A stretch of DNA of 56,570 nt from Streptococcus sp. HMSC078D09 (lineage in GTDB: Bacteria > Bacillota > Bacilli > Lactobacillales > Streptococcaceae), in the NCBI RefSeq assembly GCF_001813675.1, contig NZ_KV813678.1, forward strand, positions 143,340 through 199,909. The letters are read 5' to 3'. Under the pieces are notes generated by a model. That model ran no database searches, was not told the DNA's origin, and saw only the letters and a program-made list of their open reading frames with translations. Numbering within the stretch: the stretch's first letter is position 1; every line of letters starts with the position of its first letter. Made by a program: the position numbers and the translations under genes. This document shows positions 24,729 through 33,017 of this stretch, piece by piece.

Positions 24729-26142
<1,414 letters not shown>

Positions 26143-26151
26143 TTTAAAAAA

Positions 26152-26331
26152 GAGAGTGAGACAGAAATCGGTCATTCGTTAGAATTCGATTTCGTCGTCC
26201 CACCTCCGCACAGTTGAGTAGGGCTGTAAAAGCTGATGAAATCAGCGTAGTAGAGCCCACTCAACCACTGCGTCTTGCTCAACAATCCAAAGACAATTGA
26301 GAGGCTAGGACTTTTGTCCCCAGCCTCTTTT
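26152..26331 (+). repeat. Three-hairpin intergenic repeat, copy 3
   Basis: Same element as at 16471, with point changes. One of them (GTGAGAC for GTGGGAC) weakens hairpin 1, another is CATTCG for AATTCG. The terminator hairpin is intact. It starts about 10 bases after purA and ends 21 bases before the HAD gene, leaving no room for a separate promoter. Confidence 0.9.
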
Positions 26332-26352
26332 TGAAAGCAGAAAGAGGAAAAA

Positions 26353-26997
26353 ATGTATCAAACGATTTTATTTGACCTAGACGGCACCTTGACCAATTCA
26401 GAACTAGGGATTACCAACTCGGTGGCCTATGCCTTAGGAAAATATGGGATTCAAGTGCCAGACAAGAAAGCATTGAGAGTTTTCATCGGTCCGCCCTTGC
26501 AGGAGTCTTTTGAGCGCTTTTATGGATTTTCTAAGGAAGAATGTTTAAAGGCCATTGACTACTATCATGAGTATTTTTCCGAAAAAGGCCTTTATGAAAA
26601 TGAGGTCTATCTAGGCGTTCCTGACTTGCTGGCTTCTCTCAAGCAGGCTGGCAAACAGTTGATTGTAGCTACGTCAAAGCCTGAAGAATTTTCCATTCAA
26701 ATTCTCAAACACTTTGGTTTGTATGATTATTTTGACTTTGTCGCTGGTGCGACCATGGATAGAAAACGTAGTAAAAAAAGCGATGTTATCCAGTATGCCT
26801 TGGAGCAAAATGGGATTACAGATTTGGCGCATACCATCATGATTGGAGACAGGGAGCACGATGTGCTTGGCGCTCAAGCGCAAAAGCTTGATTCTATCGG
26901 TGTCCTTTATGGCTTTGGAAGCAGGGAAGAATTGGAAGAAGCCGGCGCCACCTATATTGCTCAAGAAGTTGGCGAAATTGCAGCTTTTATAGGATAA
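26353..26997 (+). CDS. HAD hydrolase, phosphoglycolate-phosphatase-like
   Basis: A 214-residue HAD phosphatase. Motif I FDLDGTLTNS (with nucleophile Asp8), motif II VATSKPE, the Lys of motif III in KKSDVIQ and motif IV MIGDREHDVLGA are all present. An alpha-helical cap (about 15-85) follows motif I, as in Gph/PpaX enzymes that remove phosphate from small metabolites. AAGAGG precedes the ATG. Its promoter is unclear: the space after purA is filled by the hairpin repeat. The substrate cannot be assigned. Confidence 0.85.
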   Translation: MYQTILFDLDGTLTNSELGITNSVAYALGKYGIQVPDKKALRVFIGPPLQESFERFYGFSKEECLKAIDYYHEYFSEKGLYENEVYLGVPDLLASLKQAGKQLIVATSKPEEFSIQILKHFGLYDYFDFVAGATMDRKRSKKSDVIQYALEQNGITDLAHTIMIGDREHDVLGAQAQKLDSIGVLYGFGSREELEEAGATYIAQEVGEIAAFIG

Positions 26998-27071
26998 CCT
27001 TTTCCAAAATATTAAAAGTTGGAACTTTTCTAATCTGCTGAATATTGCTTTATTTAATATTTCTATCGGTG

Positions 27072-27077
27072 TATACT
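27072..27077 (+). promoter_or_regulatory. Probable -10 box of the radical-SAM remnant locus
   Basis: TATACT with a weak TTTATT 16 bases upstream (27050-27055), located 39 bases before the start codon. Confidence 0.4.
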
Positions 27078-27115
27078 TACTGTAGGTTAAGTCACACAGA
27101 TTAAGAGGTGATAAT

Positions 27116-27394
27116 ATGAATTTGTCACGATATATATTAAAATATAGTACTGATGATGGTACGTTGTATTTTAATACTAAAACCAATCATTCATTTTTTC
27201 TTACGAATGAATTGAATAGAGTAGTCGACAGCAATGATGTGATTAGGAAAGAGTTTCATGCTTATCTTGATAAAAATAAATATTTAAGTGAGGGTGAGTA
27301 TGAGGTCGAAAAGTATCTATCTAAAATAAGCGATACAGATGCTGAATTATTGGAACTAACAATTTTGACACATGGAGATTGTAATTTTCGGTGA
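27116..27394 (+). pseudogene. Truncated radical-SAM peptide maturase (N-terminal fragment)
   Basis: A 92-residue frame with an AGAGGTG ribosome site. Its N-terminus (YILKYSTDDGTLYFNTKTNH) and the ending LLELTILTHGDCNFR look like the start of SPASM-type radical-SAM enzymes, where the latter runs into the CxxxCxxC cluster motif. The frame stops after the first Cys of that motif, so the catalytic barrel is missing and the product cannot be an active radical-SAM enzyme. The region is AT-rich. An ABC transporter gene lies just downstream, as in many ribosomally made, modified peptide clusters. The assignment rests on pattern recognition only. Confidence 0.6.
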
Positions 27395-27402
27395 AGGTTA
27401 AA

Positions 27403-27474
27403 GTGAATAACAAATTCGATGACAAAATGAATGCTAAACCTAGAGTATTTAACTATAATTGTGATTGTAAATAA
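27403..27474 (+). CDS. Short Cys-containing ORF, possible peptide precursor or remnant
   Basis: A GTG at 27403 with GAAGG 5 bases upstream opens a 23-codon frame ending NYNCDCK; an in-frame GTG at 27391 would add 4 codons. The basic, polar N-terminal part and the two cysteines near the C-terminus are what a small modified-peptide precursor might look like. It lies between the radical-SAM fragment and a hairpin before the ABC transporter gene. It could equally be debris from the deletion that truncated the maturase. Expression is unproven. Confidence 0.3.
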   Translation: MNNKFDDKMNAKPRVFNYNCDCK

Positions 27475-27498
27475 TCACGATTTTAAATAAATTAGAGA

Positions 27499-27524
27499 AG
27501 AGGGTTGTGCTAGCCCTCTATTTT
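27499..27524 (+). terminator. Hairpin before the ABC transporter gene
   Basis: Stem AGAGGG/CCCTCT with a 9-base loop followed by TATTTT. It sits between the small Cys ORF and the transporter, where peptide operons often have partial terminators that lower transporter expression. Confidence 0.65.
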
Positions 27525-27538
27525 GATGGATGATAATT

Positions 27539-29116
27539 ATGAGAAATATTTATAAGTACATTGATAAGAAGTATCTTTTTCCTATTTTTTTAGGGCGTAT
27601 TGTGAATAGTGGTTTGGTGTTGGCGCAACCTCTGATTTTAACGAAGGCCTTGAAGTTAGATCAAGACGGCCTTTCTTATGGAAAAATTCTCAATTTTGTT
27701 TTATTTGGTTTGTCTGTCTATCTTGTTATTTATAGTCTGATGCTGTTTTCAAACCATTCGCACAATATATTCCGAAGAGAAATCAACAAAAGTGTCCGTG
27801 CCCTTTTATTTAAGAAAGTCATATTGAATCCTAAATTTTCCAATGATGAAAAAGTTAGTCTGCTAACTCAAGATATGGAATATGTGGGCGATAATTATTT
27901 GGAAAATATAAATGTTATGGTGAGTTGGGGATTTGTCGCCCTTGTTACAGCCATTTATATTGTTTCACAAAATTTTCTCTTAGGACTTATTTTTGTCATT
28001 TTTACGATTATGAGACCTATTCCTCAGTTCATCATGAATCGTCGTTTACAAGATTCGGGAGACAGCTGGTCCAAGCTTAGAACGAAATTACATGGGCTTG
28101 TCTCGGATAGTATGCAAGGCAGCCAAACCTTACGGATTAATCAGGCCATGAGGCTGAATGAAGAGCGCGTGAATGATTTAAACGGAGAATATCAAAAAGC
28201 CATCCAAAGATTTTGTTTCACACATAATATTATTTTTTTCTTTAATGGATTTATGGTCTTTTTTAGTCAGGTTGTTCCTCTTGCTTTAGGCTTTTATTTG
28301 AGTTTACAGGGAAATTCTATTTCTATTACAAGCCTCATCTCTATGTATGTTGCTGCGGGGATGCTGGTAGAACCGATCCAAACTCTGATGTACAGTGCAG
28401 CCAATCTCCAAGGTGCCTTGCCGACTGCGAACCGCCTGTTTAAGATTATCGAGGAAGAACCTGATTTCGAAGAGACAAAGGATCAATTTGTTGAAAATCT
28501 CGAATCGTTGCGCTTAAATCATATTTCAAAAAGTTTTGCTGAACGTCAGCTTTTTTCTGATTTGACGGCGACGATTTCAGTAGGTCAGAAGGTCTTAATC
28601 AAAGGACCGAGCGGGTCTGGAAAGACGACTCTTTTTCGCTTGATTTTAGGAGAAGAAGTATGTGATGAGGGTGACATTTTCGTTCAGTATGATGGAAATC
28701 AAATAACGAGTCATTTCCAAGGGAATATCGGTTTAATTAGCCAGCATCCCTTCCTGTTTAACGATACTATCCGCTATAATCTAACTTTTGGTCAGCCTTT
28801 TCAGGACCATGAATTATTGGAGGTATTGGACCGAGTTGGCTTAATAGATGAATTTCAGGATATTTTGAATGTAGAAATTCATAATAATGGTGAAAACATT
28901 TCAGGAGGTCAGCGTGTCAGATTAGAGTTGGCTCGTTTTCTCTTACGCGAGAAGGATATTTTATTAGCGGACGAAGTGACATCAGCTTTGGACGAAAAAA
29001 ATAGTCGTCTGGTTAGAGACCTAATCTTTTCTTTGCCGATCACGGTACTAGAAATAGCCCATCATATTGATGAAGAAGAGCGCTATGACCAAATCCTTGA
29101 GTTACGTAAAGGATGA
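27539..29116 (+). CDS. ABC transporter, fused permease and ATPase (exporter type)
   Basis: About 525 residues. An N-terminal membrane domain with about six helices (about 10-300) is fused to a nucleotide-binding domain: Walker A KGPSGSGKTT (355-364), signature ISGGQR (about 454-459), Walker B ILLADE, and His in the switch region AHHIDE. This is the layout of half-size exporters that act as dimers. It has no C39 peptidase domain. Two starts are possible (27530 and 27539); the second is better spaced from GATGGA. The coding sequence is AT-rich and unlike its neighbours. The context suggests export of a peptide from the decayed radical-SAM locus; the real substrate is unknown. Confidence 0.8.
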   Translation: MRNIYKYIDKKYLFPIFLGRIVNSGLVLAQPLILTKALKLDQDGLSYGKILNFVLFGLSVYLVIYSLMLFSNHSHNIFRREINKSVRALLFKKVILNPKFSNDEKVSLLTQDMEYVGDNYLENINVMVSWGFVALVTAIYIVSQNFLLGLIFVIFTIMRPIPQFIMNRRLQDSGDSWSKLRTKLHGLVSDSMQGSQTLRINQAMRLNEERVNDLNGEYQKAIQRFCFTHNIIFFFNGFMVFFSQVVPLALGFYLSLQGNSISITSLISMYVAAGMLVEPIQTLMYSAANLQGALPTANRLFKIIEEEPDFEETKDQFVENLESLRLNHISKSFAERQLFSDLTATISVGQKVLIKGPSGSGKTTLFRLILGEEVCDEGDIFVQYDGNQITSHFQGNIGLISQHPFLFNDTIRYNLTFGQPFQDHELLEVLDRVGLIDEFQDILNVEIHNNGENISGGQRVRLELARFLLREKDILLADEVTSALDEKNSRLVRDLIFSLPITVLEIAHHIDEEERYDQILELRKG

Positions 29117-29231
29117 GCGATGCCACAATAGTTGGTTCTGCGACAAAGCGGATAGTAGTAAGCCAGCAATTTGTCAGATATTTTTGAGATTCTAAGTGGT
29201 GATATTTCCAAAATCATCAATACTCAGAGAA

Positions 29232-29264
29232 CTTAAGCTTTATTTAAGATAGGCCAGCTATACT
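29232..29264 (+). promoter_or_regulatory. CiaR-type promoter
   Basis: CTTAAG-CTTTA-TTTAAG (29232-29248) matches the CiaR repeat TTTAAG-N5-TTTAAG with one mismatch. TATACT (29259-29264) starts 11 bases after the second half. This spacing is that of CiaR-activated small-RNA promoters. Confidence 0.75.
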
Positions 29265-29270
29265 AGAAGC

Positions 29271-29360
29271 ATAAACAAAGACCTCCTAACTTTATTTAAA
29301 CCTCCTAAACTTTTTCATAATAATCTCCCATAAGAGTCGCCCAATCGGCGGCTTTTTTTG
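29271..29360 (+). ncRNA. Probable CiaR-dependent small RNA (csRNA)
   Basis: About 90 bases from the predicted start 7 bases after the -10 box to the T run of an intrinsic terminator (AGTCGCC/GGCGGCT, about 29334-29358). The unpaired 5' part holds two copies of ACCTCCTAA (about 29281 and 29304), complementary to ribosome binding sites, which is the hallmark of streptococcal csRNAs that block translation initiation. Length, promoter, anti-SD motifs and terminator all agree. No protein is encoded. The mRNA targets cannot be predicted here. Confidence 0.75.
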
Positions 29361-29387
29361 TGAGTCGTAAGCTGCCTATGGTATAAT
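29358..29387 (+). promoter_or_regulatory. tadA promoter
   Basis: TTGTGA (29358-29363) and TATAAT (29382-29387) are 18 bases apart. The -10 overlaps the upstream in-frame ATG at 29386, which argues against using that ATG as the start. Confidence 0.6.
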
Positions 29388-29418
29388 GAACAAAGAAACT
29401 AAAAGGAAGAAGGAAGAG

Positions 29419-29928
29419 ATGGACTACACGATAGAGGAAAAAGCGATGTTTATGAGGGAAGCCCTGAAGGAGGCGGAGATTGCCTTGGCCCATGAGGAAA
29501 TACCGATTGGCTGTGTCATTGTCAAAGACGGTGAGATCATTGGACGTGGCCACAACGCACGAGAGGAATTGCAACGAGCGGTCATGCATGCGGAGGTGAT
29601 GGCGATTGAAGAAGCCAATCAGCATGAAGAGAGCTGGCGTTTGCTGGATACGACTCTTTTTGTGACCATTGAACCCTGTGTTATGTGTAGTGGTGCCATT
29701 GGACTAGCCCGGATTCCCCAGGTGATTTACGGTGCGACCAATCAGAAGTTCGGTGGAGCAGGTAGTCTCTACGACATTTTGGCAGATGAACGCCTCAATC
29801 ACCGAGTCGAAGTAGAAACAGGAATCTTGGAAGCAGAATGTGCAGCCATCATGCAGACCTTCTTCCGCCAAGGTCGAGAACGAAAAAAACAAGCCAAACT
29901 CGCAGCCAAGGCCGAAACACAAGAATAA
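29419..29928 (+). CDS. tadA: tRNA-specific adenosine deaminase TadA
   Basis: A 169-residue zinc deaminase that converts the wobble adenosine of tRNA-Arg(ACG) to inosine. HAEVMAIEEA holds the zinc His and the catalytic Glu, and PCVMCSGAI the two zinc cysteines. The C-terminus ends in a Lys/Arg-rich tail. The ATG at 29419 follows AAGGAAG; the in-frame ATG at 29386 lies inside the -10 box. In pneumococcus tadA follows purA and precedes dut; here a HAD gene, the RiPP-like locus and the csRNA come before it, and about 19 kb after it. Confidence 0.93.
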   Translation: MDYTIEEKAMFMREALKEAEIALAHEEIPIGCVIVKDGEIIGRGHNAREELQRAVMHAEVMAIEEANQHEESWRLLDTTLFVTIEPCVMCSGAIGLARIPQVIYGATNQKFGGAGSLYDILADERLNHRVEVETGILEAECAAIMQTFFRQGRERKKQAKLAAKAETQE

Positions 29929-29939
29929 AAACCGGACCT

Positions 29940-29967
29940 TTGCAAATCGAACAAATTATGATATAAT
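29940..29967 (+). promoter_or_regulatory. SRP RNA promoter
   Basis: TTGCAA (29940-29945) and TATAAT (29962-29967) are 16 bases apart, directly before the SRP RNA gene. Confidence 0.7.
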
Positions 29968-29971
29968 ACCT

Positions 29972-30050
29972 ACCGGAGCAACAGTTCTGCGTGAAGCGGG
30001 TCAGGGGAGGAATCCAGCAGCCCTAAGCGAAGTGAACTGTGTGCTCTTTT
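29972..30050 (+). ncRNA. ffs: Signal recognition particle RNA (4.5S-type)
   Basis: The conserved SRP core is clear: GTCAGGGGAGGAATCCAGCA then GCCCTAAGC, with a GGAA-type loop. The outer arms GAGCAACAGTTC and GAACTGTGTGCTC pair, and TTTT follows. With Ffh the RNA targets nascent membrane and secreted proteins. About 78 bases, the short bacterial form. Confidence 0.9.
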
Positions 30051-30290
30051 CTATTGCTCTTGATGCGTCAAGTCCAAGGGACGCAGACGAATCCTAGAGC
30101 AATGGATGCAGTTTTTCCCGTTAGGGAAAAAGCTGTAAACCTATAAAAGCTCTTAACGAATCAAGACTGAAAGTCGCAGATGAGTTTAGAGATATTGACC
30201 CTGAGGAGCGAAGCGACGTGAGGGCTATAGCTCACCAGAGTCATGTAGAAATGACTTTGATATCCAAAGAATAAAAGAGAAAAAATAGAG
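30051..30290 (+). ncRNA. Unassigned structured RNA segment downstream of ffs
   Basis: No gene fits in the 430 bases between ffs and pgi. The first 240 form successive stems: ATTGCTCT/AGAGCAAT (30053-30103) with TGCGTC/GACGCA inside; CAG-TTTTTCCC/GGGAAAAA-G-CTG (30109-30135); GACT/AGTC (30165-30175); CCCT/AGGG (30199-30224); and AGTCAT/ATGACT (30239-30256). A weak GAAGCTTC-T7 ending lies near 30299-30315. It may be a separate small RNA, a 3' extension of the ffs transcript, or a BOX-like repeat. It is not tmRNA or RNase P RNA by sequence. Confidence 0.4.
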
Positions 30291-31870: not shown

Positions 31871-32129
31871 ACTTGTAAAATAATTTCATAAACTTTCCCC
31901 TTAGATCCAATTATAAAAACACTAATTAGTTATTATTCTTAATCATTTGCTAATCTCATTTCTAAAATACTGATGATGCAGGCTTTCTAGCTAGGCGATA
32001 GCTAACGGCACGGATTTTATACTCAAATCCTTTAATATAAAAAGTTATTTGAACATAAAAGTTGTCATTTGTCGTTTCATATTATAAAATATAAAATGAA
32101 TGAAAATATTTGAAAAAGGAATGAAAATT

Positions 32130-33017
32130 ATGAAAAATAACTTGGCTAAATTCTTGTTACTTTCATCTATGCTTGGTGGTATGGCTATTGCTCACCCAGT
32201 TTCTGCGAATACAAAAGCTGCGATTTATGAGTACAAAAATGGTCAGCTAGACCTTGTTCAAAAACCAACATATGAAGGTTTCGAATCGAATCAGCTTTCT
32301 TTGAAATTGAAAACAGGTCGTGTCGATGTAGTGGGAGCGCGTGAAGGCAAGAAAGAAAGTGCGCATGATGCAGGAGCCTACCAATTTGCATTGATCTACA
32401 AATCTGAAGGTGGCGAAGAAGAGACCGTTGCTAAAGGGCAAAATACAGCTGATGGGACGATCGAATTTGATGACGTGGATCTCTCTGGACTGAATTCTGG
32501 AACTGTTAAACTCTACATTCGTCAAACTACAAAAGATGATGGTCGCTTCAAACAGTTGGATAATGGAGAAGGGGAAGTAACAGTGTCCCTTGCTTATGAT
32601 GGGTCAGGACGCTTGATGGTGGATTCACTTGAAAGTTCAAACCCAATTTATCGTAATTTCATTACAGGCTATAAAAGTCCTGGTACAGATGGGTCGACTT
32701 CACCAAGTACAACAAGCCCATCCTCAAGTTCAAGTAGCTCAAGCAGTTCGTCTTCTAGCTCAAGTAGTTCCTCTTCTAGCTCAAGTAGCTCATCGAGCTC
32801 ATCTTCAAGCAGCTCATCTTCAAGCTCCTCAAGTTCAACTTCTTCATCGAGCTCAAGTTCTTCTTCTAGTTCTTCCTCAAATTCAAGCGACTCAAGCAAA
32901 TCTGTAGTTGGCCGTTTATTGCCAAAAACAGGTCAAGAAACAGGTGTCGTTTTGGCAACATTGGGCTTGCTCTCACTTGCAGGAATTGCTATTGTCTCCC
33001 TTCGCAAGAAATTTTAA
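32130..33017 (+). CDS. LPKTG surface protein with pilin-like domain and poly-serine stalk
   Basis: A 295-residue protein: signal peptide ending near VSA27, a globular domain (about 28-190) with AGAYQFALIYKS and TADGTIEFDDVDLSGL that recalls the Spy0128/FctA pilin-linker fold, then about 65 residues that are nearly all serine (DNA about 32710-32895), and LPKTG plus a hydrophobic tail ending RKKF. The Ser tract uses mixed codons (AGT, AGC, TCA, TCT, TCG), so it is not a simple slippage repeat. Such stalks are often glycosylated. The ATG at 32130 has AAAAAGGA 9 bases upstream; earlier in-frame ATGs at 32100 and 32121 are badly placed. TTGTCA (32062) and TATAAA (32084) form a possible promoter. 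Partner unknown. Confidence 0.8.
   Translation: MKNNLAKFLLLSSMLGGMAIAHPVSANTKAAIYEYKNGQLDLVQKPTYEGFESNQLSLKLKTGRVDVVGAREGKKESAHDAGAYQFALIYKSEGGEEETVAKGQNTADGTIEFDDVDLSGLNSGTVKLYIRQTTKDDGRFKQLDNGEGEVTVSLAYDGSGRLMVDSLESSNPIYRNFITGYKSPGTDGSTSPSTTSPSSSSSSSSSSSSSSSSSSSSSSSSSSSSSSSSSSSSSSSTSSSSSSSSSSSSSNSSDSSKSVVGRLLPKTGQETGVVLATLGLLSLAGIAIVSLRKKF

Follow-up and report, generated by a model that had tools for sequence, protein, structure and literature searches.

Why would a streptococcus keep an intact peptide exporter beside the stump of the enzyme that once modified the peptide? The question is raised by a locus of the oral bacterium Streptococcus sp. HMSC078D09 (genome of 2.16 Mb) that lies in a stretch of 56,570 nucleotides (contig NZ_KV813678.1, positions 143,340 to 199,909), called here the window. 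The gene order at the site is a HAD hydrolase gene, a 92-codon fragment of a radical S-adenosylmethionine (radical-SAM) maturase gene, a small Cys-bearing open reading frame (ORF), a hairpin, an ATP-binding cassette (ABC) exporter gene, a Cia-dependent small RNA (csRNA), and tadA. On balance, we lean to the reading that a cluster for a ribosomally synthesized and posttranslationally modified peptide of the radical-SAM type (RaS-RiPP) underwent a deletion that took away the catalytic part of its maturase, and that the intact exporter likely persists as self-standing immunity against the mature peptide that sister strains with a whole cluster would secrete.

A deletion in the maturase gene

The maturase fragment (27116 to 27394, plus strand) encodes 92 residues that are 100% identical to residues 1 to 92 of a 431-amino-acid (aa) enzyme in L022 and L026, the first full loci read, where the protein runs uninterrupted between the same flanks. 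An earlier sequence-only reading of this DNA had proposed that a formerly complete cluster lost its maturase barrel, and had suggested a search for the full enzyme between the HAD gene and tadA, flanks that it had named correctly. Four genomes (G086, G097, G223, and G257) carry a full-length maturase there, and these enzymes align through the window junction, as that reading anticipated. It had also named two observations that would speak against it, a lack of full-length homologs and an exporter gene always standing alone; full-length homologs were found and, in the survey described below, 15 of 58 exporter loci have a maturase.

Compared with the intact allele of G223, the window allele lacks 1,034 bp, and codons 93 to 431 of the maturase are gone. 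The junction (27392 to 27393, plus strand) has a 2-bp overlap, TG. The fragment ends HGDCNFR-stop, just past the first Cys (C89) of the CxxxCxxC motif, as had been noticed from the sequence; the intact enzyme's C93 and C96 fall in the missing part. Because only one of the three CxxxCxxC cysteines is left, the fragment cannot, going by the radical-SAM mechanism, be an active maturase. No close maturase homolog was found elsewhere in the genome, which holds five other radical-SAM matches, four of them over the cut-off; maturation in trans by one of these proteins is possible.

The intact relative's enzyme matches PF04055 (E value of 3.7e-13), and C89, C93, C96, and the C-terminal cysteines are invariant in 48 aligned maturase sequences. 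The intact relatives have both the CxxxCxxC and the SPASM cysteines of a radical-SAM maturase, while the window keeps residues 1 to 92 only. The best NCBIfam models for the intact maturase (P0001) both score below their cut-offs, TIGR04463 at 134.8 of 525 bits and CefB (NF038107) at 130.5 of 600 bits. An AlphaFold2 model of the intact relative's maturase, built from the 48 aligned sequences, has a mean predicted local distance difference test score of 92.3. In the PDB it comes closest to 5why and 5wgg, whose entries concern how thioether bonds form during sactipeptide biosynthesis and which we take to be CteB. In the secondary structure of the model, the window fragment spans three strands and three helices (residues 7 to 76), which are read as a leader-binding domain resembling a RiPP recognition element, and the first barrel strand.

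The truncated allele is not confined to this genome. A six-frame search with the 92 residues gave matches in 20 of 147 genomes of the genus, several of them within full-length frames. The window junction was found in 9 of 284 genomes, its own included, and a protein cluster of the 92-aa window type counts 259 member sequences; the figure for the full enzyme is 430, both being database counts and not strain frequencies. Since the junction recurs in 9 of 284 genomes and the 92-aa cluster has 259 members, the 92-codon allele is not a chance event. A protein collection gave 28 matches to the 92-residue query, among them the window type, a 96-aa type, a further in-frame deletion inside the maturase (P0123), and six records in which maturase sequence runs in frame into the precursor (P0133, P0136, P0144, P0147, P0148, and P0150). 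The way in which the search finds proteins of 51 to 161 aa favors in-frame fusions. One fusion, P0147, occurs on 27 contigs of up to 2.2 Mb; some of the short records may be assembly errors.

Precursor, hairpin, and promoter region

The small ORF is the precursor of the clusters that have a complete maturase; the conservation that the sequence-only reading had wanted tested was found. Its start is another matter. The 23-codon frame proposed earlier begins at 27403, which is an internal GTG; intact relatives begin at the codon matching 27391, and the ORF has 27 codons from there (27391 to 27474, plus strand), its GTG start lying at the junction and overlapping the stop codon of the fragment. 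The deletion took the precursor's own ribosome site and put GTG in the place of the ATG of intact loci. Because a GGAG (27374 to 27377) lies 13 nt upstream of that GTG, translation of the precursor nevertheless appears possible. The frame resembles the short precursors of streptococcal RaS-RiPP clusters in its 27 codons, its two C-terminal cysteines, and its conservation in intact relatives; the core ends CDCK and contains NYNC, which bears on a possible membership of the NxxC subfamily (an Asn-x-x-Cys core with an NxxcB-type enzyme).

Downstream, as the sequence-only reading described, stand a hairpin followed by a T-rich run (27499 to 27519, plus strand) and an open exporter gene. The hairpin, which may act as the attenuator that the earlier reading took it for, is conserved across the cluster family, and its loop, GTGCTAG, is kept in loci whose maturases share only about 55 to 60% identity. 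The segment from 27493 to 27527 folds with a z score of −3.26; an Rfam search returned no family at the hairpin.

Upstream of the fragment, a region that we infer to be the retained promoter of the operon (27025 to 27077, plus strand) combines an upstream element (27025 to 27046), a −35-like TTTATT (27049 to 27054), and a −10-like TATACT (27072 to 27077). The same element and hexamers precede the clusters of intact relatives and most maturase-less loci, although a consensus promoter scan of the window did not list the region. The element occurs once in the genome when up to three mismatches are allowed, and a regulon built on it was dropped, since the genome holds only the element's own copy. 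Ahead of the promoter, a palindrome-like AAAAGTT-N2-AACTTTT followed by CTAAT (27014 to 27046) recurs in some other loci and is possibly a regulator site. The block is AT-rich beside its neighbors, as had been remarked: the GC fraction is 0.28 to 0.31 in 500-base windows over 27000 to 27749, against 0.42 to 0.49 in those over 25000 to 26999 and 29250 to 29999.

Repeated loss of the maturase across the genus

An exporter search over 284 genomes of the genus matched 60 of them at E values up to 1e-110, and all 58 exporter loci of at least 52% identity were read. A full-length maturase is present in 15 of the 58, a remnant in 22, and nothing detectable by tblastn in 21. This survey favors exporter-bearing loci by design, and searches led by the maturase and by the flank served as controls.

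In clade A (exporter identity of at least 91%), all 22 loci are at the HAD-tadA site, and 4 have the full maturase. Among the 18 genomes whose HAD is about 99 to 100% identical, 4 have the full maturase and 14 have lost it. Seven kinds of loss occur at the site (window type; G030/G138; G094; G224; G246; G040; G243/G102/G159); in the five kinds whose junctions were measured, the overlap is 2, 7, 3, 1, and 7 bp, the other two kinds having only been viewed. Because the junctions differ between alleles and the measured overlaps span 1 to 7 bp, we rejected the idea of a programmed or site-specific switch. On the tree of the 58 exporters, loci with and without maturase are interleaved, and the maturase state needs at least nine changes on well-supported branches. 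The same exporter, at 91 to 100% identity, occurs on contigs named S. parasanguinis, S. australis, S. cristatus, S. sinensis, and Streptococcus, and whole and broken alleles both occur among those named S. parasanguinis. Similar maturase losses have happened many times.

The precursor fared differently from locus to locus. It is complete in 14 of the 15 maturase-bearing loci; of the 43 maturase-less loci, 13 have a full one (nine of these the window type), 5 a doubtful one, and 25 either none or a frameshifted one. Among the doubtful cases, that of G246 has no normal start, those of G113, G188, and G282 begin in the −10 box, and that of G106 has lost its stop. This tally led us to give up the idea that the precursor is purposely spared by the losses. 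A −35/−10 pair related to that of intact loci is retained upstream in 37 of the 43, judged by eye, and was not seen by eye in G136, G244, G095, G001, G106, and G041. In L130 (G153), maturase and exporter are both full and the precursor is frameshifted, an alternative way to stop producing.

In the maturase-led control, 51 of the same 284 genomes match the full maturase at E values up to 0.001, and every match of at least 38% identity has an exporter gene directly downstream, including the distant matches in G231, G026, G218 (two), G220, G248, G143, and G266. A maturase kept with its exporter gone was not seen among the matches of at least 38% identity, lower matches being outside the exporter check. 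In G143 (L039 and L168), a distant maturase gene is split by a transposase-like gene, presumably IS256-like, and the exporter downstream is open.

The flank-led control found the HAD gene at identities of at least 84% in 28 genomes, 22 of which have the cluster locus. These 22 loci always carry the exporter gene, open in 18 and broken in 4. The other six have a HAD-tadA gap of about 165 bp with no cluster and, by eye, a csRNA-like sequence between the two genes, likely the preinsertion state. The cluster seems to sit in the HAD 3′ end (26953 to 26997), with a likely relic of the original end following the exporter (29201 to 29238, plus strand), which by eye resembles the HAD 3′ end of the six cluster-free genomes.

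The exporter is mostly retained in maturase-less loci

The exporter gene (27530 to 29116, plus strand) encodes a 528-aa protein with PF00664 and PF00005 that is identical over its whole length to the exporter of G086, which holds the whole cluster. Its best NCBIfam match is the streptosactin exporter GggC (NF050039), at 186.8 of 750 bits, below the cut-off. The window thus has the exporter gene of a streptococcal RaS-RiPP cluster, its export function being predicted. The frame is open in 37 of the 43 maturase-less loci.

Exporters were grouped by loci of the same arrangement. The ratio of nonsynonymous to synonymous substitution rates (dN/dS) is 0.093 for clade-B exporters at a second site (10 maturase-less loci), 0.061 for S. 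cristatus/sinensis-type exporters at the window's own site (3 maturase-less loci), 0.117 for clade-C exporters (8 maturase-less loci outside the 58), and 0.131 for clade-B exporters whose maturase has lost its 5′ part (4 loci, treated as one group on the assumption of a single shared loss). Three maturase-bearing clade-C loci, for comparison, give 0.121. Summed over the four maturase-less groups (25 genes), 161 nonsynonymous changes were found against 1,553 expected without selection, and no nonsense codons against about 98 expected. One of the ten clade-B genes has a frameshift near its start, outside the compared part, and in these comparisons allele sharing by transfer is indistinguishable from descent. 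A shallow group, G113, G188, and G282, gives a dN/dS of 0.197 (mean dS of 0.016). At the second site of clade B, promoter and exporter are separated by one and the same 105-bp leader in nine of ten loci (one of the nine was read past the exporter start by the script) and by a 96-bp version of it in G138. In the groups compared, exporters of related loci that lack a maturase are under purifying selection.

What the retained exporter may do

An intact cluster, found at the same site in sister genomes, comprises the promoter region, the 431-aa maturase, the 27-aa precursor, the hairpin, and the exporter. In such a cluster, the maturase would crosslink the C-terminal cysteines of the precursor, the mature product would inhibit related streptococci, and the exporter would pump the mature peptide out of the cell or membrane, by which we infer that it gives immunity to that peptide. 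Loss of the maturase would save the cost of production with immunity kept, leaving an immune nonproducer, or cheater. The genotype fits this description, in that alleles without the production gene occur beside whole ones within the species group (14 versus 4 of 18). Moreover, because 25 of the 43 maturase-less loci have no intact precursor and in 5 more it is doubtful, export of its own precursor is not what the exporter is kept for.

Several observations weigh against retained immunity, and they limit the earlier suggestion that the exporter may survive for this purpose: it is compatible with purifying selection on related maturase-less exporters, but some exporters are broken in the closest relatives. 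Six are broken in all. Four are in the 14 maturase-less loci of the window's closest relatives (G227, G262, G225, and G138), and two are in clade B (the second of two copies in G248, and G041). The window lineage may therefore be decaying, and because the breaks are in its closest relatives, decay is the main rival: the cluster would be useless, the maturase lost first, and the window exporter simply not yet broken. The window-type alleles are young, too alike for a selection test (mean dS of 0.003), and unselected loss would leave just such varied deletions, whose overlaps at five junctions range from 1 to 7 bp. Yet the four maturase-less groups have dN/dS values of 0.06 to 0.13 and no nonsense codons where 98 were expected, and the converse loss, of the exporter with the maturase kept, went unseen at maturase identities of at least 38%. 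We rate plain decay as rather unlikely. Broken exporters number 6 of 43 in maturase-less and 0 of 15 in maturase-bearing loci, a difference without statistical significance (P = 0.32). Of the 18 closest genomes, 4 carry the full maturase and 14 an open exporter, and the four broken exporters are all in maturase-less loci. In favor of retained immunity, a second, clade-B exporter is present in all four genomes whose clade-A exporter is broken and in 5 of the 14 where it is open (one-tailed Fisher P = 0.041); the test ignores relatedness, which counts on the other side.

It is improbable, though conceivable, that the exporter is kept for another substrate, perhaps a different peptide or some compound of the membrane, the RiPP now being irrelevant. 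The precursor is absent, frameshifted, or doubtful in 30 of the 43 maturase-less loci, most of which retain the exporter, and the best family match, GggC, is far under its cut-off; the interleaving of maturase states on the exporter tree, however, with its nine or more changes, is unlike one new role adopted once. Least credible of all is that the precursor itself is the kept product, an unmodified peptide made from the start over the fragment's stop codon and exported in a new role. The 27-codon frame left by the junction does have a usable start, and maturase sequence is joined in frame to the precursor in 6 of the 28 protein records, but the way the search finds proteins favors such fusions, and the 25 maturase-less loci with a lost or frameshifted precursor mostly have an open exporter.

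Relation to known systems

The wider family helps to place the window peptide. The clade-B precursors of G120, G016, and G270 end CQMP, and the maturases of these genomes are 57 to 59% identical to those of the window family; the G120 enzyme shares 98.6% identity with an S. suis protein that bears the name radical SAM protein. The QMP motif names the suisactin subfamily, and NEF is another named subfamily, without known function in the part of the source available (PMC13361665). Clade-B relatives share with the QMP RaS-RiPPs (suisactin, QmpB) the order maturase, precursor, hairpin, and exporter. The window-family precursor differs in ending NYNCDCK, with neither the QMP core nor a paired N-x-C. 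The window site is flanked only by HAD and tadA, without the adjacent Rgg regulator of streptococcal RaS-RiPP clusters. The window peptide is a relative of the QMP (suisactin) group that seems not to have been described before. With streptosactin (GggA/B/C) the window shares its top exporter match and a short Cys-bearing streptococcal precursor, but the exporter is far under the GggC cut-off, the precursor lacks the GGG motif, and the streptosactin maturase model is absent among the best 25 of 46 matches for the intact maturase.

Clade-C precursors end CDEDGNEF, and clade-C loci of this NEF type show the same loss of maturase with retention of the exporter; they differ in keeping an adjacent Rgg, and their exporters are only about 40 to 42% identical to that of the window. 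Of 13 NEF-type exporter loci, three have the full maturase (G179, G259, and G283), one has a disrupted maturase (G193), one has a remnant (G276), and eight share one deletion (L148, L150 to L153, L155, L156, and L158) that leaves an Rgg-type gene and the exporter, the maturase being gone. The adjacent 287-codon gene kept in these eight has a dN/dS of 0.079; it is Rgg by PF21259 in the one that was profile matched (L148). Four neighbors of 280 to 282 aa in clade-C and two-exporter loci are likewise Rgg, and a search for a shp-like ORF pattern in two clade-C loci returned none. Two further loci were noted. G131, of the two-exporter type, carries a maturase with an internal deletion, and both of its exporters are open. 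G168 (41% exporter identity) belongs to another type, in which no maturase was seen and the exporter is accompanied by a second, partial one.

Partial bacteriocin clusters of pneumococci (streptococcins and blp) are a precedent for loss of the production part with the protective part kept and with alleles coexisting in a species; the available part of that study discusses as cheaters those partial streptococcin clusters in which immunity and/or transporter genes remain (PMC6120550). In blp, the text available describes several independent frameshifts that break the exporter gene blpA, with separate immunity proteins encoded (PMC12150690). The window locus, by contrast, retains the exporter, and no other gene was seen at the site; if our preferred reading is true, the cheater pattern is opposite to that of blp, where the exporter gene repeatedly breaks.

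Self-protection is an open question in the RaS-RiPP literature cited here: as far as the accessible part of the tryglysin study goes, an induced immunity factor was sought and none was found (PMC8092268). There, pretreatment with the SHP pheromone, which induces the wgk operon including the predicted transporter gene wgkD, gave no immunity to tryglysin, a result that also weighs against immunity by exporters of this kind. Recurrent maturase loss with a selected exporter points to one candidate self-protection gene. One may tentatively extend this to the family, in that QMP-, NEF-, and window-type exporters could be the missing immunity determinants, that maturase deletion would repeatedly make stand-alone immunity, and that Rgg-linked nonproducers would sense the pheromone of producers to induce it; this wider proposal is possible at best. 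For study of the candidate gene, natural matched alleles are available with the whole cluster, the exporter only, or the exporter broken. No account of this locus or of exporter-only cluster remnants was recognized among the titles listed in a literature search that mostly left out subscription journals.

Neighboring features

The left flank is the gene of a HAD-family hydrolase, by gene and family calls (26353 to 26997, plus strand), and the right flank is tadA (29386 to 29928, plus strand; NF008113 above the cut-off). Between exporter and tadA lies csRNA1 (29270 to 29358; Rfam RF02379, 88 bits). Beyond tadA are a bacterial small signal recognition particle RNA (29970 to 30055; RF00169) and, at 32100 to 33017, a surface-type protein of 305 aa in which a long run of serines and, close to the end, an LPKTG motif are found.

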